From Planctomycetales bacterium (lineage in GTDB: Bacteria > Planctomycetota > Planctomycetia > Isosphaerales > Isosphaeraceae): 40,353 bases of DNA. A program made the translations under genes and the position numbers. Below the pieces are notes generated by a model, which was not told the DNA's origin, ran no database searches, and saw nothing but the letters and a program-made list of their open reading frames with translations. Positions 3,904 to 37,914 of the stretch are shown piece by piece. The stretch's first letter is position 1, and each line of letters opens with the position of its first letter. The DNA lies in assembly GCA_027449865.1 (NCBI GenBank), contig DAIDKV010000044.1, positions 1 through 40,353 of the forward strand, read 5' to 3'.

Positions 3904-5040
3904 TCAGGACGGCTTCTTCCGCTCCGACGGATGCTCGGCGCCCGCGGAGAGCCGCTCCTCGTAGGCCGACCGGAGCGCCTCGTAGTCCCGTTCGCGACTC
4001 TTGTAGAGCCGGCGGAGCGGGCGCGGTTCGTGCCGCGCCAGGGCGTAGGCGACCAGCATCGGCAGAGCGATTGTCGAGTCGGTGTAGCAGGTCACCGAGT
4101 CGGGAAGCTTCTCGGGATCGACCTTGCCCCAGGTCATCGCCTCGCTTGCCGTCGCACCCGAGAGGCCGCCGGTATCGGGCCTCGCGTCGGTGATCTGGAG
4201 GAAGTAGTCGTGCCCGCTCTCGGCCAGGCCAAGAACCTCCTGAATCTGCGGCTCGGTCTGGAGGATGAAGTTCTTGGGGCTTCCTCCGCCGAGGATCAGG
4301 ACGCCGGACTTGCCGGCGCGCTTGGCGGCGTAGACAATCGCGGCCGTCTCGTTCACGTCGCGAAGGGTATCGATCTGGAGCAAGCCGCCCTGAAGGCTCA
4401 TCGCCGCGAGGTTCATCCCGATCGAACTGTCGGCCGGGCTCGACGTGAAGATCGGGACATCCGCCTCGAACGCCGCGGCCAGCAGGCTCGAAGAGGTCCG
4501 GCCGATCGCCTGGGCGCGGCCGTGGAGGTATCGACCGACCTCATGGTGGAACTCCGCCGTTCCCATGGGCCGAGCGAATGCCTCGTCGCGGATCAGTTCG
4601 CGATAGAAGGCGTCGGTGTCGAGCAGGGTCTTGTAGTCGAAAACGATGTCGTAGATTCGGATGACGTCGTGCTGCCTCAGCTCGAAATCATCGAGGTTCG
4701 GCCGGCTCTGGTGGAGCGGAAGGTCGAGCGCGTAGTGGGTGTCGTGATAGAGGTTCGCCCCGGTGGAGACGATCCAGTCGACGAAGCCGGCCTGGATCAT
4801 CGGGATCAGGCAACTGATTCCCAGTCCGGCCGGGGTGAGCGCCCCGGAGAGCGTTAGCCCGACCGTACAATCGGGCTGGAGGAGTTTTTGGGTGAAGACG
4901 CGGCAGACCTCGCGGAGCCGGCCGGCGTTGTAGCTGGAGAAGGCGCGGTCGATCAACTCGGCCGCCGTCTCGGTCCCGGAGACCGGCGGCGGCGCGATTC
5001 GATGTTGACTGATCGACTGCAAGAAGCCGTCGTTGCTCAT
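3904..5040 (-). CDS. Deoxyhypusine synthase-family protein (possible homospermidine synthase)
   Basis: The 378-residue product belongs to the NAD-dependent deoxyhypusine synthase family. In eukaryotes and archaea this family transfers the aminobutyl group of spermidine to eIF5A/aIF5A. Bacteria lack eIF5A, and some bacterial members (SpeY-like) make homospermidine. The glycine-rich nucleotide-binding stretch is seen near 247-257 ([12 protein letters not shown]). The segment [11 protein letters not shown] puts a lysine at K306 in the place of the catalytic lysine of human [16 protein letters not shown] (62-74) is also typical. I chose the ATG at 5040 because the family similarity begins there, while the open frame upstream is antisense to the arginine decarboxylase gene. 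No strong ribosome site is visible. The gene starts 40 bases after the arginine decarboxylase, which supports a polyamine role. Substrate is not decided by the sequence. Confidence 0.88.
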
Positions 5041-5080
5041 AAAAAGATTTTGACCGGGTCGTCGGCCCGGGCTCTCGTCG

Positions 5081-5626
5081 TCAGGGGATGAGGATGGCGG
5101 CGGCGACGACGGTGGTCCAGAGGCCGTCCTTGTGGCCGACGGCGGTCTGGGTGATCTCCTTGGTCTTGTAGAAGACGTCGGCGATCTTCCAGATCTCGCG
5201 TTTTTCGTCCCAGGAGCTGTTGGGGTTGAACTCGACGCCGAGGATGGTGGCGAGCATCTCGGCGGCGAGATCCTCGGCATAGTCGGCGGCGGTCTTGGCG
5301 GTCTGGCCGTAGGCGTGGTGCTCGGAGAGGTAGCCGAAGAGGCTCCGATCGCGCGGAATCGCGACGCCGACGCTCGCGGCCACGAGCCGGTTGGGCTCGG
5401 CGGTGGCGCTCTCGCTCATCACCACGTGGACGATCTGGCCGGGCTGGAGTTGCTTGAGCCCCTCGTCGACCGAGATTTCCTTGCAATTCGGCGGGAAAAT
5501 ACTCGAGACGCGGACGAGGTTATAGCAGGCAATTCGGGCGTCTCGGAGGGCAAGCTCGAAGCTGGTGAGCTTCTCGCGGTGTGTTCCGACGCCCTTGGTG
5601 AAGAACAGTTTTGTGGGTACGTACAT
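5081..5626 (-). CDS. Pyruvoyl-dependent arginine decarboxylase
   Basis: This enzyme decarboxylates arginine to agmatine, the entry to polyamine synthesis. It uses a pyruvoyl group made by self-cleavage instead of pyridoxal phosphate. The 181-residue protein has the family start ([14 protein letters not shown]), the conserved sFELAL segment (about 22-27) and the cleavage motif RVSSIFPP, placing the processing site at Ser41-Ser42 (beta chain 1-41, alpha chain from the pyruvoyl residue). [21 protein letters not shown] is also typical. I prefer the ATG at 5626, where homology begins; GGAGGT lies 12 bases upstream. The frame could extend 24 residues further, but that extension has no family character. 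The gene precedes the deoxyhypusine-synthase-family gene on the same strand. Confidence 0.9.
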
Positions 5627-14746: not shown

Positions 14747-17700
14747 ATGTCGACCGCCGGACCGATCCTGATCGAGACCATTACCCATCCTGAGGCCGCT
14801 CTCCGCGACCGATCGGCCCGCGAGCTCATCGCGGGCTTCGGCCTCGCCGAGAAGCTCCAGGCCGCCGAGGAGCTGGAGCGATTCCGACGGACCCGCTCGA
14901 ACCTTTACGAGCGCGTTCGCGCCTCCCTGTTTCTCCACGCGCTCCATCGCTTCGAGATCCAGGAGGCACCCGAGATCCCCGAGACCGGATGGGTCCCCTT
15001 CGACGGATTCACGGATCTCATGGAACGCCGATACGAGCAGGCGATTGCCTCGTTCCTCGAAGCGATGCGAAGGGATGGCCCCAACGGGACCATCTGTAGC
15101 GCCCTGGCGACCGCCTATCAGCACGTCGCGTTTCAGGACCTGGCCGACCAGGTCAGGCGGTCGGTTCGGAGCTGCCGGGGGAATCGCTGGATGTTCCGGG
15201 TTGGCGGCGTCGACGAGCATCCGCTCCGGATCCATCCGAAGCTCCTCGCCCGAGACTCCGACGACGCGCTCTTCCCCATCCTGGTCGAGCGGACGCCCGT
15301 CCGGCTCGATCTTTCTCACAGCGGATGGTCCGACATCTTCTTCCTCGGGATGGACTACCCCGAAGGTGCGCGCGTCCTGAACATCTCGGTCGACCTGGGT
15401 GTTCACAATCGCGATGCTACGCCCGTGCCGCCGATCGAGTGTCGGTTGAGGGTCATCCCCGAGCCGATTTTGCGGCTCACAAGCATCGATTTGAAGGCGT
15501 GCAAGGACGTCGACTCGCTCGAAGAGCTGTTCAACTTTGGGAACGATTACCTCGGGCTGGTGAAGGCGGGGATTGTGGCGTCGGGGCTGATCCCGCCCTC
15601 GCTGGAGGGGACGGGCGTCCGCCTGGCCGACCTGCTCGCGCGGATCATCCGGCCGGGGCACGGGCTGGAGGTCGTCAGCAAGGTCAACGACATTCCCAAG
15701 GGCTCCCGGCTGGCCGTCTCGACAAACCTGCTCGCCTCGCTGATCGGGATGTTGATGCGTGCCACCGGCCAGGCGCGGAACCTCACGGGTCCGCTCGACC
15801 TTGAAGAGGCGAAGGTGGTTGTCGCCCGGGCGATCCTCGGCGAATGGCTCGGAGGCTCGGGCGGCGGCTGGCAGGACTCAGGCGGGATCTTCCCCGGGAT
15901 CAAGCGGATTCAGGGCGTCGCGGCGACCGGGACCGATCCCGAGTGGGGCATCAGCCGGGGCCGACTCCTCCCCGAACACACGCTCATCAACCGCGGCGAG
16001 CCGACCGGCGACCCGGCCTCCTTCCCCGAGGCCCTGGCGCGAAGCCTGGTCCTTGTTCACGGTGGGATGGCTCAAAATGTCGGCCCAATCCTGAACATGG
16101 TTACCGAGAAGTACCTGCTCCGCGGCAAGGCCGAGTGGGAGGCCCGCCAGCAGGCATTGGGGATCTTCAACGAGATCGTCGGCTGCGTCGAGCGGTCCGA
16201 CGTCCGCGGACTCGGACAGGCGACGACCCGGAACTGGAACGGCCCGCTCAAGCGAATCATCCCCTGGGTCACCAACGAGTTCACCGAGACGATCATCCGC
16301 GAGGCCCGCGCTGCGATGGGCGAGGATTTCTGGGGCTTCCTGATGCTCGGCGGGATGTCCGGCGGCGGGATGGCCTTCTTCGTCGCACCGCACCGGCACG
16401 ACGAGTTCCAGGACCGGATCGCCGCCATCATGCGGCACGCCAAGGCCGAACTCGACGACGCTCTCCCCTTCGCGATGGAACCGGTCGTCTACGACTTCCG
16501 GATCAACCCCGCCGGCACCGTCGCCACTCTGAAATCCGGCCCCGACGCCATGATGCCCCCCTCGTATTACGCGATCCAGGTTCCCCGAATGATCGGGGCG
16601 CCGGCCGGCTCGCTCTCGGTCCATCGGCGGGCTGACGTCGACCACTTCGCCACTCACTTCCCTGATCAGACCGAGCAGTTAAAACTCTTCCGGACGATGG
16701 TCAACCACCTCTTCCCGGTCACCCGATCCGCGGCCGATACGACCGCCGCCGACTGGGATGCCGAGGCCGACCGCATCCAGCGAGAGAACGGTTTCGACCC
16801 GGTCCAGCACGAGCAGCTTCGCGAGGACCTCCAGCGCGGGCGGATCGGGCTCGCGCGCAACCGCCTCTCGGTCGACCTCGACGTCCGCGACGTGGACGAC
16901 TCGGAGCTGATCGCGGCGGCCGGCTCGTGGTCGCCGTCGGTGGTCCGCAAGGGCGAGGCGGCAATCGGCAACGGCGAGGTCGCGGTGGTCACGCTCGCGG
17001 CGGGAGTCGGCAGTCGATGGACGACCGGCGCGGGGGTCGTGAAGGCGGTCAACCCGTTCGTGCAGATGGCCGGCGCGCACCGGAGCTTCCTCGAAATCCA
17101 CCTGGCGAAGACACGGAAGATGCAGGAGGCGCTCGGTGTCCGGATCCCGCACGTCGTGACGACCAGTTATCTCACCCACGCGGCGATCGACCACCACCTT
17201 CGGGCGACGGGAAACTACGGCCACGATGGGCCGCTGTATCTCTCGCGAGGTCAATCCATCGGCCACCGGTTGATCCCGATGACCCGTGACCTGACCTTCC
17301 TCTGGGAAGAGACCAGCCACGAGACGCTCGACGAGAACAAGCAGAAGGTTCGCGAGGCCGGCCGCAGGGCGATCCTCGAATGGGCAAGAAGCCAGCGCGA
17401 GGGAGCCGACTATACCGATAACGTCCCGATCCAGCGGTTCAACCCGCCGGGCCACTTCTACGAGGTGCCGAACCTGCTCCGCAATGGCGTCCTCGCCCAA
17501 ATCCTCGACGACTTCCCAGGGCTCTCCTGGCTGATGGTCCACAACATCGACACCCTGGGCGCCACGATCGAGCCGGGAATCCTGGGAACGGCCATCGAAT
17601 CCGTGGCCCCACTCAGCTTCGAGGTGATTCCCAGGCGGATCGAGGACCGGGGTGGCGGCCTGGCGAAGGTCGGCGGCCGGCTCCGACTGCTGGAGGGCCT

Positions 17701-18112
17701 GGCCCAGCCTCGCGAGGATACCGAGTTCAAGCTCCGCTATTACAACACCCTGACAACCTGGGTCCACGTCGACGGCCTTCTGCACGCCTTCGGCCTCGTT
17801 CGCGAAGACCTCAGACGCGATCCGGAGAAGGTCGCCGCGGCGGTTCGCAAGATGGCCGCGCGGGTGCCGACCTACGTCACCATCAAGGACGTCAAGCGAC
17901 GGTGGGGCCACGGGCAGGAGGACGTTTACACGGTCGCACAATTCGAAAAACTTTGGGGCGACCTCAGTTCGCTTCCCGACCTGAACTCGGCGTTCCTCGC
18001 CGTCGACCGGCGCCGGGGCCAGCAGCTCAAGGACGCCGCGCAGCTCGACGGCTGGGCCAACGACGGCAGCATGGAATACGTGGAGTCACTCTGCCGGTTC
18101 TCTCGGGATTAA
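14747..18112 (+). CDS. GHMP kinase-like / UDPGP-type pyrophosphorylase fusion protein
   Basis: This 1121-residue protein has three parts. Residues 1-180 are helical and unassigned. Residues about 180-640 look like a GHMP sugar kinase. LDLSHSGWSDIF (188-199) and RVLNISVDLGV (209-219) suit the substrate strand, RLAVSTNLLASLIG (321-334) the helix, GGSGGGWQDSGGIFPGIKRI (369-388) the kinase QDxxGG motif, and GGMSGGGMAFFV (535-546) motif 3. Residues about 742-1110 resemble UDP-sugar pyrophosphorylases: loop VVTLAAGVGSRWTTGAG (747-763), K766, SLNR-like QRFNPPGHFYEVPNL (896-910) and WLMVHNIDTLGATIEP. Such a pair would phosphorylate a free sugar at C1 and then couple it to a nucleotide, as in plant FKGP, which has the opposite domain order. 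Substrate sugar and nucleotide are not decided. It follows the GalU-like gene by 74 bases. Confidence 0.8.
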   Translation: MSTAGPILIETITHPEAALRDRSARELIAGFGLAEKLQAAEELERFRRTRSNLYERVRASLFLHALHRFEIQEAPEIPETGWVPFDGFTDLMERRYEQAIASFLEAMRRDGPNGTICSALATAYQHVAFQDLADQVRRSVRSCRGNRWMFRVGGVDEHPLRIHPKLLARDSDDALFPILVERTPVRLDLSHSGWSDIFFLGMDYPEGARVLNISVDLGVHNRDATPVPPIECRLRVIPEPILRLTSIDLKACKDVDSLEELFNFGNDYLGLVKAGIVASGLIPPSLEGTGVRLADLLARIIRPGHGLEVVSKVNDIPKGSRLAVSTNLLASLIGMLMRATGQARNLTGPLDLEEAKVVVARAILGEWLGGSGGGWQDSGGIFPGIKRIQGVAATGTDPEWGISRGRLLPEHTLINRGEPTGDPASFPEALARSLVLVHGGMAQNVGPILNMVTEKYLLRGKAEWEARQQALGIFNEIVGCVERSDVRGLGQATTRNWNGPLKRIIPWVTNEFTETIIREARAAMGEDFWGFLMLGGMSGGGMAFFVAPHRHDEFQDRIAAIMRHAKAELDDALPFAMEPVVYDFRINPAGTVATLKSGPDAMMPPSYYAIQVPRMIGAPAGSLSVHRRADVDHFATHFPDQTEQLKLFRTMVNHLFPVTRSAADTTAADWDAEADRIQRENGFDPVQHEQLREDLQRGRIGLARNRLSVDLDVRDVDDSELIAAAGSWSPSVVRKGEAAIGNGEVAVVTLAAGVGSRWTTGAGVVKAVNPFVQMAGAHRSFLEIHLAKTRKMQEALGVRIPHVVTTSYLTHAAIDHHLRATGNYGHDGPLYLSRGQSIGHRLIPMTRDLTFLWEETSHETLDENKQKVREAGRRAILEWARSQREGADYTDNVPIQRFNPPGHFYEVPNLLRNGVLAQILDDFPGLSWLMVHNIDTLGATIEPGILGTAIESVAPLSFEVIPRRIEDRGGGLAKVGGRLRLLEGLAQPREDTEFKLRYYNTLTTWVHVDGLLHAFGLVREDLRRDPEKVAAAVRKMAARVPTYVTIKDVKRRWGHGQEDVYTVAQFEKLWGDLSSLPDLNSAFLAVDRRRGQQLKDAAQLDGWANDGSMEYVESLCRFSRD

Positions 18113-32148: not shown

Positions 32149-32697
32149 TCAGGGACCTGGATTCTCCGACTCGTCGGGTGGCTCCACCCCCTCGACCGGC
32201 ACGCCTTCGGGCTCGCGAAACGAGGCCGGGGCGCCGAAGCGGGCGGCAGGCACCCGTCCGCGGATGGTGTCGACCTCGACAATCCGCCAGCCGTCCGGCC
32301 CGCGCTCCAGGCGGTAGACCTGCCGCTCGTTCCGGTCGGGATAGACCGACTCGACCGCGATTCGGACCGCGTCGGGCCCATCCGGCTCCGGGGCGTGGAT
32401 GGCGTGCCCCTTTCTTGCCGACGAGGCCGCGCGCAGCCTCTCCGCAAAGGTAGCCGGCCCCGCCTCGCCAGCCTCTCGCGCCAGCCGATCTCGTAATGGT
32501 CCAGTAAAAGAATTAAGATATGAGTTGATTTTCCCGTTTGTGGCGTTGGCAATCAACTGGCTGACGACCGCCTCGGGGGGCTCGCCGGTGCGTGAGGAAG
32601 TGCCACTGGGCGCCGGGGAATGCCGCCGGGCGTTGGTGGCGACGATCAGGCCAAGGAGAGCGACGGTGAGGAAACCGGCGAGGATCCGACGGTTCAT
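32149..32697 (-). CDS. Small exported protein of unknown function
   Basis: The 182-residue product has an N-terminal membrane/signal segment (RRILAGFLTVALLGLIVATNA). The mature part is soluble: PEAVVSQLIANATNGKINSY, ERLRAASSARKGHAI and DRNERQVYRLERGPDGWRIV, a helix-then-beta order that recalls NTF2-like or lipocalin-type accessory proteins. No named family can be given. Its ATG overlaps the stop of the HflK-like gene by four bases (ATGA read on the minus strand), so it is translated with the SPFH genes. This tight coupling suggests that it works with the SPFH complex at the membrane. Confidence 0.72.
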   Translation of the reverse strand: MNRRILAGFLTVALLGLIVATNARRHSPAPSGTSSRTGEPPEAVVSQLIANATNGKINSYLNSFTGPLRDRLAREAGEAGPATFAERLRAASSARKGHAIHAPEPDGPDAVRIAVESVYPDRNERQVYRLERGPDGWRIVEVDTIRGRVPAARFGAPASFREPEGVPVEGVEPPDESENPGP

Positions 32698-33638
32698 GGC
32701 CGGGCCTCCCGCGGTTCCCGGCGTCCGGGCTCATCGCCGAAGAGGGTCAGGTCGACCGGCTCGCCGGGCTCGACGACGACCTTCCGGGCGAAGCGAGGCA
32801 TCAGCTCGGCGAGGGCTTCCAGGTAAAGCCGGCGACGGGTTGCGTCGGGGTCGCGAATGGCCTGGGCGAGGACCCGGGTGAAGCGGTCAGCCTCGCCGCG
32901 CGCCGACTGGACCAGGCGATCGCGATGGGCCTCGGCGCGATCGGCGACCTCGACCACGCGGCCCTCGGCGTCGGCCCGGGCTCGATCGCGATACTCCTCG
33001 GCGCCGACGACGGCGCGTCGGCGATCGCTCCGGGCGCGGTCGGCGTCGGCGAACGCGGGGGCGACGGCGTCCGGGGGCGCGACCCGTCCGAGCCGAACCG
33101 CCCGGATCGAGACACCGAGCCCCAGGTGATCGGCCGACTCCTGCAAGGCCCGGCCGACTCGATCGGCGACCTCGGCCCGGCCGGAGGTGAGTACGTTGTC
33201 GATCCCTCGCCCGGCGAGCTCACGCACCAGCGCCGATCCGGCCGCCGAGGAAAGGCTCTCCTCGACCGACCGCGAGCCGAAGAGGAATCGAACTGGGTCG
33301 GCCACGCGATACTGGACGATCGCCTCGACGGTCGCCAGGTTGAGGTCACCGGTCAGGAAGTCGTCGCCGGCCGGGTCGGGGCGGGTCGACATCGGCGCCG
33401 ATGTCTCGCCTCGGGCACCAACGGCGAGCGTCCGCGTCTGGCCTGTTTTCACTCGGTCGACCTGATCGATACCCCAGGGCATTCCCAGATGCAAACCCGG
33501 TCCCCAGGGCTCGGCCATCACGGCGCCAAATCGACGGACGACTCCTGCCTCGTCCTGCGAGACAGCGACCAGTCCCGTCGCCAGATAGCCGAGCAGGGCG
33601 ATCGCGCCCGCGGCCACCACCTTCGCGCGGCGGCTCAT
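32694..33638 (-). CDS. HflK-like SPFH/Band 7 membrane protein
   Basis: HflK and HflC form a large membrane complex that surrounds and controls the FtsH protease. The 314-residue product has an N-terminal anchor (VVAAGAIALLGYLATGLVAV, about 7-26) and then the SPFH domain: VSQDEAGVVRRFGAVMAEPW, GPGLHLGMPWGIDQV, LTGDLNLATVEAIVQYRVAD and PVRFLFG, the last of which is characteristic of HflK. A long Ala/Arg/Glu-rich coiled coil (about 205-265) follows. Conserved NxxLTSGRAEV-type elements precede it. The ATG lies in an ATGA overlap with the HflC-like gene stop. The order is HflC-like then HflK-like, opposite to the Escherichia coli order. Confidence 0.9.
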   Translation of the reverse strand: MSRRAKVVAAGAIALLGYLATGLVAVSQDEAGVVRRFGAVMAEPWGPGLHLGMPWGIDQVDRVKTGQTRTLAVGARGETSAPMSTRPDPAGDDFLTGDLNLATVEAIVQYRVADPVRFLFGSRSVEESLSSAAGSALVRELAGRGIDNVLTSGRAEVADRVGRALQESADHLGLGVSIRAVRLGRVAPPDAVAPAFADADRARSDRRRAVVGAEEYRDRARADAEGRVVEVADRAEAHRDRLVQSARGEADRFTRVLAQAIRDPDATRRRLYLEALAELMPRFARKVVVEPGEPVDLTLFGDEPGRREPREARP

Positions 33639-34609
33639 GGCGACCCTCCCCCAGCCGGAGAGGCCGGGCGGGAACCTGTCTTTTCGAGGCTACGAACGAC
33701 GGCCGGCGACTTTGGCGACGAGGTCGGCGATTCAGGGACACCGCGGGTCAGGAGCTTCAAGAACGGGCTCTCGGAGGAGAGGACGAGCATCGTCTTGGCG
33801 TCGAGGGCCGTGCGATAGGTCTCGATCGTCTTGAGGAACCGGTAGAAGGCCGGATCGACGGCGTGGGCCTCGTTGGCGATCCGGGTGGCCTCGGCCTCGC
33901 CCTCGCCGACGATTCGGGCGGCCTCGGCCTCGGCCTCGGCGATCGCGCGGGAGCGATCGCGATCGGCGGCGCTTCGTATCCTGCGGGCCTGGCTCTCGCC
34001 CTCGGCACGCGTCGCCGCGGCGACTCGACGACGCTCGCTCCGGATCTGCTCAAAGACGGCCGAGCGCACCTCCTCGGGATAGTTGAGCCGGCGGAGTCGG
34101 ACATCGACCACTTCAATCCCGTACTCGCGACGGGCCTGCTCGCCGATCCGCTGGGCGGCTCGGTCGAGCATCGCGCCGATCTCCGTCCCCTTGTCGACCC
34201 GGACCAGATCGCCGAGGTCGCGCCCGCCCAGCTCCGCGGCCAGAACCGACGCCGCCATGTCCTCCAGTCGAGCCGAGGCGTCGGCAATCGTTCGGACCGA
34301 GCGGAGGAAGCGGTCGACGTCGTCGAGCTTCCAGGCGACGTACCACGCGACCTCAAGGTTCTTCTTGTCGCGGGTGAGCATCTCGCGAGGCGGAGGGGCG
34401 TCGAGCTGCAGTCGTCGGTCGAACCCCCGACGGCTCTGATGCGGCCACTTCCAGTGGAGCCCGGGCGCCTCGATCAATCGGACCGGTCGGCCGAACTCGG
34501 TGATGTAGACGACCTCGGCCTGGTCGACGATCACCACCGATCGCACCAGCGCGACAAGGGCCACGATCCCGACGGCCATCACCAAAATCAAGAGCCGCCG
34601 GCCCTTCAT
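33635..34609 (-). CDS. HflC-like SPFH/Band 7 membrane protein
   Basis: The 324-residue product has an N-terminal anchor (LLILVMAVGIVALVALVRSV, about 5-24) and the SPFH pattern of HflC: VVIVDQAEVVYITEFGRPVR, then LIEAPGLHWKWPHQSRRGFD, MLTRDKKNLEVAWYVAWKLD, LRRLNYPEEVRSAVFEQIRS and the arginine/alanine coiled coil AEGESQARRIRSAADRDRSR. The last part has FYRFLKTIETYRTALDAKTM, VLSSESPFLKLL, as in HflC. The ATG at 34609 is chosen because the hydrophobic anchor begins right after it; an upstream in-frame start at 34657 would add 16 charged residues. The ribosome site is modest (AAGGGA, eight bases upstream). It follows the ATPase-SPFH gene after a 221-base gap. Confidence 0.92.
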   Translation of the reverse strand: MKGRRLLILVMAVGIVALVALVRSVVIVDQAEVVYITEFGRPVRLIEAPGLHWKWPHQSRRGFDRRLQLDAPPPREMLTRDKKNLEVAWYVAWKLDDVDRFLRSVRTIADASARLEDMAASVLAAELGGRDLGDLVRVDKGTEIGAMLDRAAQRIGEQARREYGIEVVDVRLRRLNYPEEVRSAVFEQIRSERRRVAAATRAEGESQARRIRSAADRDRSRAIAEAEAEAARIVGEGEAEATRIANEAHAVDPAFYRFLKTIETYRTALDAKTMLVLSSESPFLKLLTRGVPESPTSSPKSPAVVRSLEKTGSRPASPAGGGSP

Positions 34610-34830
34610 GACATCGTCCCTTCGTCTGTGGTCCGAATCATTCTCACGGCGATCCAACGGCGTCGATCCGGGAGGGACCGCGGGCCCTGGACCCGTCTCG
34701 AATCATCTGAATCTGTATCCGAGAAGCCGACCTGGTGCCAGTCCCTATCGACCCACGCCCGCCTCGTCCAGGCTCCTCTCGCACCAGCCCGCGCGGGTAA
34801 CCGGGACGGAACGCTGATACTCTTGATCGC

Positions 34831-37800
34831 TCAATCGTCCGGCTCTCCTTCACGCTCTGGTGGGGCGATTGCTGGGGCGGCGAACTGCCCGGGATCGGCC
34901 ATCCAGAGGTGCCGACGTCCCCCAGCGCGGGGATCGAGGATCAGCTTCGGCCGGCCCGCGAAGGCCGACGCGAACGACTCCCAGAGCAGGCGAAACTCGG
35001 TCAATTCGGGTGCTCCAGCGTGCGCGGCTGACCGTGCCCGGAAGGCCAGGCTCGCCCCGTTCGCCCGGCTCGCGACCTCGTGCGATCGCGTGCGTGCCGA
35101 CTGCCGGATCGCGTCGGCCTCGGCCTGAGAAGCCCATCGCCGGTCATCGGCGTACGCCTCGGCGTCGTTCCGATAGCGCTCGACGTCGGAGACGGCTGCC
35201 GAGGTGTCGCGATAGGCCGGGACCACCTCGCGCGGCGGATGGGCATCGACGACCCGCGCCCGGTCCACTTCCACCGGCAACCCGATCGAGGCGAGTCGCG
35301 ACCGGAGCGACGTTTCGATCTGTTCCTCGAACCCCCGACGGTCCGCGACCAGGATCGATTCGAGCGGTGTCCGTCCGACTGCCTCGCGGAAGACCCCCTC
35401 GGCCGCCGACTGGACCATGGGCTCGACCGCCGAAGCCCCGAACAGCAGCGTCGGCGCACCCGCTTCGGTCAGGCGATACTCGACCACCGCCGCCAGCTCC
35501 ACCAGCCCCTCATCGCCAGTGAGAAACAGTGCGTCGTCGGCACGTCGGGCGCCGTGGGTCGCGTTCCAGGCGATCGGACGCGTGGCCTCGGTGCCTGATG
35601 CGGGCGCCGACAAACCGACCCTCGCCACGCGGACCACGTCCGGCTCCACGAGCGTCACGGTCTCGCACGGCCAGGGCCATCGGACGTGCAGGCCCGGGTG
35701 GAGCAGGGGGGGCGTGTGGCGTCCCCATCGCTGCAAAATGCCGACCTCGCCAGGCTGGATCACCACGACGCCGGAGGTCAGGTAAGACACAAGAAGGATC
35801 GCCGCTGAGCCGGCTGCGATGGTTCGCGGATGCCGCGACGCCCAGCCAACGGCCGCCGAGGGCCGGCATCGTCGGCAGGCCGCCAGGGCTGACCCCGCCA
35901 CCCGAGCGCCCGGCAGCTCGCCCCACCGCTCGAAGCCGAGCAGTCGCATCGCGTTGAGCAGGACCAGAAGCGAGCCGATCTGATGAAAGATCGCCGCGGC
36001 GACCGGTCCCAGGATTCGGAGTCCCGCCAGCAGCACCGCCAGGCCGTTCAACCCAAACGCGAAGATCAGGATGTTCTGGCGGATGATCGTTACCGTCTGA
36101 CGGGCCAGTCGGATCGCGCCGGGCAACGGTTCGAGCGGATCGCCCATCAGGACGATTGAGCCGGCCTCCGCCGCGATGTCCGACCCGACTCCACCGAGCG
36201 CCAGGCCGACGTCCGCGCCGGCGAGCGCCGGCGCGTCGTTGATCCCGTCGCCGATCATCGCGACGACCTTCCCCTCGTCGCGCCGACGACGAACCCACTC
36301 GGCCTTGTCGGCGGGCGTGAGTTCGGCCTCGACCGCCTTGATGTGGACCTTCTTCGCCACTCGCCGCGCCGCCGCGGGACGGTCGCCGGTGAGGATCGTC
36401 AGGTCCTTGAGGCCGAGGTGTTTCAGGTCGTGGACCACATCGTGCGCCTCGGGACGAACCCTGTCCCTCGCGCCGATGGCGCCGATGATCCGCCCGTCGA
36501 CCGCGACGAGAAGGACGGTCTGGCCGTCGTCGTCGAGCGAGGTGAGCGCTGAATCGACTGCGCCGGCCACCTCGATCCCGCGTTCCCGGATCAGCCGAAG
36601 GTTGCCGACGAGCAGGGTCCGCCCGTCGTCGCGGAGCGTCGCCGAGACCCCGACGCCCGGATGGGCGCGGAAGTCAACTACCTCGGGCAACCCGATCCCG
36701 CGCCGATTGGCCTCGGCGACGACGAGCCGGGCGAGCGGATGCTCGCTCCCTCGCTCGGCGGCGGCGGCCAGGCGGAGGACCTCCGACTGATCGCCCTCAA
36801 AGGCGACGATCTCGCCCGGCTCGGGGCAGCCCTCGGTGAGGGTGCCGGTCTTGTCGAACGCGAAGGCATCGGCGCGGGCCAGTCGCTCGATCGCGGCACC
36901 TCCCTTTACCAGCACACCTCGACGCGCCAGGCGGGCGGTCGCGGCGAGGACCGCGGCCGGTGTCGCCAGGACCAGCGCGCACGGGCAGGCGACCACCAGC
37001 ACCGCCAGCGCCGGCATCACATCGATCGAAGGAGCCGGTTCGCCCCGCATCCGCTGCCAGAGGCCCGACGCGTTCGTCAGCACGAAGACAATCGTCGTCG
37101 CGGTGAGGACAGCCGGGAGGAAGAGCCGGGCGTATCGGTCGGCCGCCCGCTCCAGCGGCGACCGCTTTGATTGAGCCTCGGCCAGTAGCTTGATCACGCG
37201 GCCGAGGGTCGTCTCCATCCCGATTCGATCGGCCCGGACCGTCAGCCGGCCGAACTGGTTGAACGTCCCGGTATAAACCGGGTCGCCCGGTCCCTTATCG
37301 ATCGGCATGCTCTCGCCGGTCAGGATGGACTGGTCGACGGCCGACCGTCCCTCGATCACTGGGCCATCGGCCGCGATCCGGTCGCCGGGGCGGACGACCA
37401 GCACATCGCCGACCACGACCGACGCTGCGTCAACCTCGACCTCCTGCCCGTCGCGGAGGAGACGCGCAGTTCTCGGGCGGAGGTCCAGCAGCTTTTGAAT
37501 GGCTCGCTGGGCGCGATCGAAGGTGAGAGCTTCGAGGCACTCGCCGACCATCGCGATGAAGACGACCTCGGCGGCGACGAACCATTCCCCCAGGATCGCG
37601 GCGGCAACGCAGGCGATCGCCAGCGCGATATCGGCGCCGATCCGCCCTTCGAGGATCGCGGCGATCGCCAGGTAAACGACCCGACCGCCGCCGATCAGCG
37701 CGGCCACCTTCGCCGGCGCAATGCCGAACGGCAGTCCGATCGTCGTCCCCGTGGCTGACTGGAAGAGATCCAGGCCGAGGAAGAAGCCGACCACAGCCGT

Positions 37801-37914
37801 CGTCGCGACCAGGACCCTGCGCTCGGCTTCGGGGTCATGATCGTGATGGTGGTGGTCGTGATGGTCGTGATGATGGCCGATCGCCATCTGCGTCGGGTCG
37901 TACTCGCGATGCAA
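34831..37914 (-). CDS. P1B-type metal ATPase fused to an HflK-like SPFH domain
   Basis: This 1027-residue protein is a fusion. Residues 13-27 are His/Asp-rich, a likely metal-binding tail. Residues about 32-665 form a heavy-metal P-type ATPase: TGES (199-202), CPC (310-312) in a membrane helix, phosphorylation motif DKTGT (354-358), HP locus (392-393), GDGIND (555-560) and last membrane helices ending LLNAMRLLGFERW. After a 30-residue linker, a further membrane segment (about 698-712) leads into an SPFH domain (about 713-900, SGVVVIQPGEVGILQRWGRH, LTGDEGLVELAAVVEYRLTE, LLFG) and coiled coil, as in HflK. The start is a TTG (37914) with GAGGAGG nine bases upstream. CPC motifs occur in Cu, Zn, Cd and Co pumps; the metal is not decided. 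It heads a five-gene run with further SPFH genes. Confidence 0.9.
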   Translation of the reverse strand: MHREYDPTQMAIGHHHDHHDHHHHDHDPEAERRVLVATTAVVGFFLGLDLFQSATGTTIGLPFGIAPAKVAALIGGGRVVYLAIAAILEGRIGADIALAIACVAAAILGEWFVAAEVVFIAMVGECLEALTFDRAQRAIQKLLDLRPRTARLLRDGQEVEVDAASVVVGDVLVVRPGDRIAADGPVIEGRSAVDQSILTGESMPIDKGPGDPVYTGTFNQFGRLTVRADRIGMETTLGRVIKLLAEAQSKRSPLERAADRYARLFLPAVLTATTIVFVLTNASGLWQRMRGEPAPSIDVMPALAVLVVACPCALVLATPAAVLAATARLARRGVLVKGGAAIERLARADAFAFDKTGTLTEGCPEPGEIVAFEGDQSEVLRLAAAAERGSEHPLARLVVAEANRRGIGLPEVVDFRAHPGVGVSATLRDDGRTLLVGNLRLIRERGIEVAGAVDSALTSLDDDGQTVLLVAVDGRIIGAIGARDRVRPEAHDVVHDLKHLGLKDLTILTGDRPAAARRVAKKVHIKAVEAELTPADKAEWVRRRRDEGKVVAMIGDGINDAPALAGADVGLALGGVGSDIAAEAGSIVLMGDPLEPLPGAIRLARQTVTIIRQNILIFAFGLNGLAVLLAGLRILGPVAAAIFHQIGSLLVLLNAMRLLGFERWGELPGARVAGSALAACRRCRPSAAVGWASRHPRTIAAGSAAILLVSYLTSGVVVIQPGEVGILQRWGRHTPPLLHPGLHVRWPWPCETVTLVEPDVVRVARVGLSAPASGTEATRPIAWNATHGARRADDALFLTGDEGLVELAAVVEYRLTEAGAPTLLFGASAVEPMVQSAAEGVFREAVGRTPLESILVADRRGFEEQIETSLRSRLASIGLPVEVDRARVVDAHPPREVVPAYRDTSAAVSDVERYRNDAEAYADDRRWASQAEADAIRQSARTRSHEVASRANGASLAFRARSAAHAGAPELTEFRLLWESFASAFAGRPKLILDPRAGGRRHLWMADPGQFAAPAIAPPEREGEPDD

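Follow-up and report, generated by a model that had tools for sequence, protein, structure and literature searches.

A P1B-type metal ATPase fused to an HflK-type SPFH domain is conserved in the class of its planctomycete host and accompanied by HflC and HflK partner genes

We detected in a Planctomycetales bacterium a single open reading frame encoding a P1B-type ATPase that continues, through an extra membrane helix, into an SPFH domain of the HflK type. It lies in the window (the whole stretch of 40,353 nucleotides that was analysed) and is directly followed by genes for type-II HflC and HflK, i.e., fusion-associated lineages in the order C then K, distinct from the canonical HflK-HflC. We consider it probable that the fusion supplies the pump in an obligate complex of three components, the other two being type-II HflC and HflK, which would form an HflKC-like cage in the periplasm; a contact between the three proteins is suggested by their gene association. 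The features of the fusion gene are as follows:

34831-37914, minus strand: P1B-type ATPase and HflK-type SPFH fusion, 1027 amino acids, TTG start, single ORF
35935-37914, minus strand: residues 1-660, the P1B-type ATPase with its eight membrane helices
37837-37875, minus strand: N-terminal stretch rich in His, residues 14-26; its conservation does not extend across the class
36979-36987, minus strand: CPC motif, residues 310-312, invariant
36841-36855, minus strand: DKTGT phosphorylation motif, residues 354-358, invariant
36235-36252, minus strand: GDGIND, residues 555-560
35983-35985, minus strand: invariant His644 of the last ATPase helix, which together with Asn623 gives a set of ligands unlike that of ZntA or CopA
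35758-35829, minus strand: ninth (extra) membrane helix, about residues 696-719
35194-35763, minus strand: SPFH (Band_7) domain, HflK type, residues 718-907
35023-35223, minus strand: long helix (coiled coil), residues 898-964, from the predicted model

The preliminary description of this DNA had reported the gene as one unbroken frame, and its coordinates, strand and domain order were right. The TTG start is supported by the MHRE that it yields, since these are also the first residues in most relatives of the fusion. The Pfam domains proposed for a search, i.e., E1-E2_ATPase (residues 145-332, 2e-58), Hydrolase (349-568, 4e-27) and Band_7 (718-907, 1e-14), were all found above their cut-offs, and the NCBIfam model for heavy-metal P-type ATPases, TIGR01525, scored 571 bits against a cut-off of 346. 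Among 18 fusions, the TGE, DKTGT, HP and GDGxND motifs occur in order and are invariant or nearly so, and C310-P311-C312 is invariant in a core membrane helix. The ATPase is complete, as had been claimed. Its sequence matches P1B-type ATPases, and its top fold matches are 7r0g, 4bbj, 4umw and 7qbz. A His-rich N-terminus had also been described; it is present in the window copy, but is largely confined to the host's family within the class. A Pfam search found no N-terminal metal-binding domain in the fusion.

The last two core helices of the fusions carry invariant Asn623, His644 and Ser648. ZntA (P1B-2) is recognized by Lys and Asp in its last two membrane helices, and CopA (P1B-1) by YN and MxxSS. 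Neither subclass was retained for the fusion, which has Asn623 and His644 in place of the ZntA residues, and LN and HxxxS in place of the CopA motifs. The same genome also encodes a ZntA-like paralog (L011) in which K and D are present, and two CopA-like paralogs (L013 and L014) with YN and the Met/Ser motif. As the host holds ZntA-like and CopA-like pumps with their own signatures, the fusion represents a third pump type. Histidine at position 644 is shared with an unfused P1B group that is frequent in Clostridia, and mycobacterial CtpC also has His at the corresponding position. We predict that the pump exports a transition metal, for which a divalent ion is more likely than Cu+; a substrate such as zinc or manganese would be a guess of low confidence, since it rests on few residues.

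Among the matches listed by a short-peptide scan of named genomes, 80 in number, all were ordinary P1B ATPases and none had an SPFH tail. In 50 of these genomes, from Bacillota, Spirochaetes, Proteobacteria, archaea and others, every strong match ends in or just after the ATPase.

The survey for the same fusion in other genomes, which the preliminary description had proposed, showed that it recurs: when 297 genomes were sampled from the class of the host, a profile of 18 fusions had matches in 134 of them, and the carriers represent 66 out of 154 genera. The outcome named there as refuting, absence of the fusion from every other genome, did not arise. In about 128 carriers the match extends beyond the junction and far into the SPFH part, and the other six matches, not all of which were checked, are partial. 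The host's family has the fusion in 29 of 45 genomes, where one group shows about 65% identity and a second about 50%; the host has one of each. Only one carrier (G448) was found among about 315 genomes of the other classes of the phylum, and it has the same two partners. A DUF1559 protein encoded in a relative also points to a planctomycete as the host.

These counts bear on whether the fusion is an assembly error, or its tail a functionless passenger. An assembly error or frameshift was rejected, as each of the 40 fusion loci that were read, among them that of the window, has both domains in one ORF; this version of the artefact reading is already refuted, and a fusion present in 134 of 297 genomes is not an artefact. 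In favour of a passenger, the tail does change more rapidly than the pump, with the linker the fastest of the three. On the other hand, codon-position differences among fusions show more changes at the third codon position than at the first and second in the pump, the linker and the SPFH part, so that coding constraint acts on all three. Together with the invariant residues in the tail, the 134 carrier genomes and the near-complete co-occurrence with the partner genes described below, this makes an artefact or a passenger tail extremely unlikely.

The ATPase halves of the fusions form one clade (support 98/96), which makes a single origin likely. In the tail tree, the fusion label needs two changes, and the starred branches leave one origin possible. 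The fusion is old.

A membrane helix, an SPFH domain with HflK signs and a coiled coil had been reported behind the pump, and this is confirmed. In the tree, all 40 fusion tails fall on the HflK side of the branch that separates HflK from HflC (support 100). In a sequence search against the PDB, E. coli HflK was the only match of the tail (7vhp, 3.5e-17), with an alignment over E. coli HflK 144-349 that contains one two-residue gap. TIGR01933 (hflK) scored 112 bits against a cut-off of 159, i.e., the tail is HflK-like and below the equivalog line. When the tail was modelled by itself, an SPFH fold followed by a helix of 67 residues was obtained, and HflK/C chains were the best fold matches, with modest confidence (pLDDT 58); the structure models are good for the pump part and weak for the tail, because few sequences were usable. 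Four tail residues, W783, H787, H892 and Y901 (window 35212-35568 spans residues 783-901), are present in 85-93% of the fusions and nearly absent in other HflK, and may form either a metal site in the periplasm or an interface of a specialised kind.

The preliminary description placed the fusion gene correctly and missed the two partner SPFH genes that directly follow it (33635-34657 and 32694-33638):

33635-34657, minus strand: type-II HflC gene; TIGR01932 174 bits, cut-off 134; likely start ATG at 34609
32694-33638, minus strand: type-II HflK gene; TIGR01933 171.6 bits, cut-off 159; 4-bp overlap with the HflC gene
32149-32697, minus strand: gene for a 182-amino-acid protein without family assignment; 4-bp overlap with the HflK gene; counterpart in four other loci

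The last of these is a possible member of the operon. An SPFH gene pair stands beside the fusion, on the same strand, in 28 of the 40 loci, mostly downstream and in the order C then K, with 4-bp overlaps at some of the gene joins; in one of these linked loci (L159) the pair is upstream. The genomes of the 12 unlinked loci all have type-II HflC elsewhere, and in 8 of them HflK was seen beside it. Linked or not, the fusion-associated C and K genes group together in the tree, where the type-II HflK clade (97) is apart from that of canonical and E. coli HflK (98). The canonical gene order in the loci read is K then C.

Co-occurrence was followed with a type-II HflC profile that gives at least 323 bits for type II, except for one truncated copy at 269, and at most 260 for canonical HflC. 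In the 297 genomes, fusion and type-II HflC occur together in 129, the fusion alone in 5, HflC alone in 5, and neither in 158 (Fisher p 1e-70, a value that ignores relatedness and is not to be taken literally, as the genomes are related and the counts are not independent events). Of the five genomes with HflC only, four do contain at least a part of the fusion, i.e., two with the fusion or its end adjacent, one with a fusion split by a frameshift and one with a fusion end at a contig edge; in the fifth, the contig edge cuts the sequence off. An HflC fragment at a contig edge is present in one of the fusion-only genomes. In 113 genomes compared for linkage, fusion and type-II HflC lie within 6 kb in 72 and not in 41; the pairing holds in these 41 without gene adjacency. 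At locus L219 (3920-7313, genome G004), the fusion is in two overlapping frames with HflC and HflK adjoining intact, reflecting either a sequencing error or a broken gene.

The association with HflC and HflK raises the question of FtsH. E. coli HflK and HflC assemble around FtsH in the periplasm and hold it (PMC12048511), and their loss destabilises some membrane proteins, e.g., TonB (PMC12005517). The tail could in this way tie the pump to an FtsH-HflKC assembly in which type-II HflK and HflC surround FtsH and the pump level is set by proteolysis or shielding. The host has FtsH, and the search of its genome found no HflK or HflC beyond its two fusion operons, its other SPFH proteins looking QmcA-like, slipin-like and flotillin-like by inspection. 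Yet host FtsH is encoded on a separate contig (C86), unlinked to the fusion operon, and two other genomes each hold two HflKC systems, a canonical K-C pair together with a type-II C-K set (L178 and L179; L145 and L193). The presence of both sets in the same genome suggests a division of labour, and we regard such quality control of the pump as rather unlikely. Of the earlier proposal of a metal pump on an HflK-type scaffold, the pump and scaffold are well supported by the conserved fusion and the co-occurring HflC/HflK pair, while the specific link to FtsH is not, with FtsH on another contig.

For the complex of fusion, type-II HflC and type-II HflK, the topology can be proposed from hydropathy and the AlphaFold model, both of which predict a ninth helix, at about residues 696-719, behind the eight of the ATPase. 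P1B pumps have both chain ends in the cytoplasm. As the chain would be cytoplasmic after the eight ATPase helices, the ninth would carry the SPFH domain across to the periplasmic side, where the metal exits; a periplasmic SPFH domain, as in E. coli HflKC (PMC12048511), is thus to be expected. We hypothesize that the P1B-type ATPase acts as a transition-metal exporter covalently tied via the ninth helix to its HflK-type SPFH domain, and that fused HflK-type subunits, free HflK and HflC could assemble into a mixed HflKC-like ring or cage. Such a cage would hold several pumps together and bound the space that receives the exported metal, and possible roles of the enclosed exit side would be metal sequestration, handover to periplasmic proteins or pump protection. 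In its fullest form, a caged ion pump whose three subunit types enclose the periplasmic exit would deliver metal into a compartment bounded by protein, which could serve detoxification or the loading of periplasmic metalloproteins; we put this forward tentatively, as a real possibility that falls short of being probable.

The SPFH parts might instead gather the pumps into a patch of membrane and enclose neither them nor the released metal. SPFH proteins have been proposed as organisers of microdomains. Mycobacterial P-ATPase platforms form without an SPFH cage, and even exclude a flotillin-like protein (PMC9374683). Against a purely lateral scaffold, the match between tail and HflK continues through the coiled coil, and the system retains an HflC of its own, as an alternating HflK/HflC ring would need; we consider lateral clustering distinctly improbable.

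The proposed cage can be compared with known systems. Like CopA, ZntA and CoaT, the fusion has all catalytic motifs, eight helices and CPC, and it differs from them in Asn623 and His644, in the extra C-terminal helix with the SPFH domain and in lacking a Pfam metal-binding N-terminal domain. With HflK/HflC-FtsH (7vhp, 7wi3, 9cz1) it shares the succession of helix, SPFH domain and long helix and the presence of both K and C types. It differs in that a K-type subunit is welded to a pump, the partners follow the order C then K and form separate clades, and FtsH is unlinked. In the FtsH complex, FtsH is held by a ring in which K and C alternate; of the fusion system, both the HflC and the HflK partner are present. 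In the PacL1-CtpC efflux platforms, a scaffold gathers a P1B pump in mycobacterial membrane foci (PMC9374683). This is likewise a dedicated scaffold for a P1B pump, but PacL1 is a small, separate DUF1490 protein that is neither SPFH nor fused. Stomatin encapsulates AQP1 and UT-B (PMC12407830), thus an SPFH assembly encloses a transporter, as predicted for the fusion; stomatin, unlike the fusion, does so non-covalently, with channels as clients, in human erythrocytes.

Each half is of a known kind, and it is their covalent union, the conservation of this union and the partners dedicated to it that appear to be undescribed. No paper on an SPFH domain and a P-type ATPase in one protein was found in the open-licence literature, domain-architecture listings being outside this scope, and a term search of a 2009 SPFH survey naming 12 subfamilies gave no mention of ATPase. 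This agrees with the earlier statement that no characterised protein of such kind is known. The evidence on what SPFH cages contain, and to what purpose, is mostly indirect. Here, the client is fixed covalently, as a metal pump with known partners, and a single operon makes the cage hypothesis directly testable. These findings point to a second HflKC-type system that appears to be independent of control by FtsH, and to metal efflux organised in a new form.

The second fusion paralog of the host (G000 C182:44727-47762; L134:10268-13363) is 49% identical to the first and has its own HflC/HflK pair. Upstream of it are one ExbB-like gene and a pair of ExbD genes, which have counterparts at five further loci in its subgroup. 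This link may have meaning, as E. coli HflKC has been reported to stabilise TonB (PMC12005517). The same locus encodes a 672-amino-acid protein with an E1-E2_ATPase domain and no Pfam Hydrolase match (L134:4099-6117, minus strand), and another host contig (G000 C251; L135:5489-7780) a 763-amino-acid flotillin-like SPFH protein with a long region ahead of its Band_7 match. Elsewhere in the window, we observed a bacterial deoxyhypusine synthase family protein (3904-5280, minus strand; PF01916, 7.8e-70) and an 1121-amino-acid protein (14747-18112, plus strand) with a UDPGP match only near its C-terminus (residues 894-1009).
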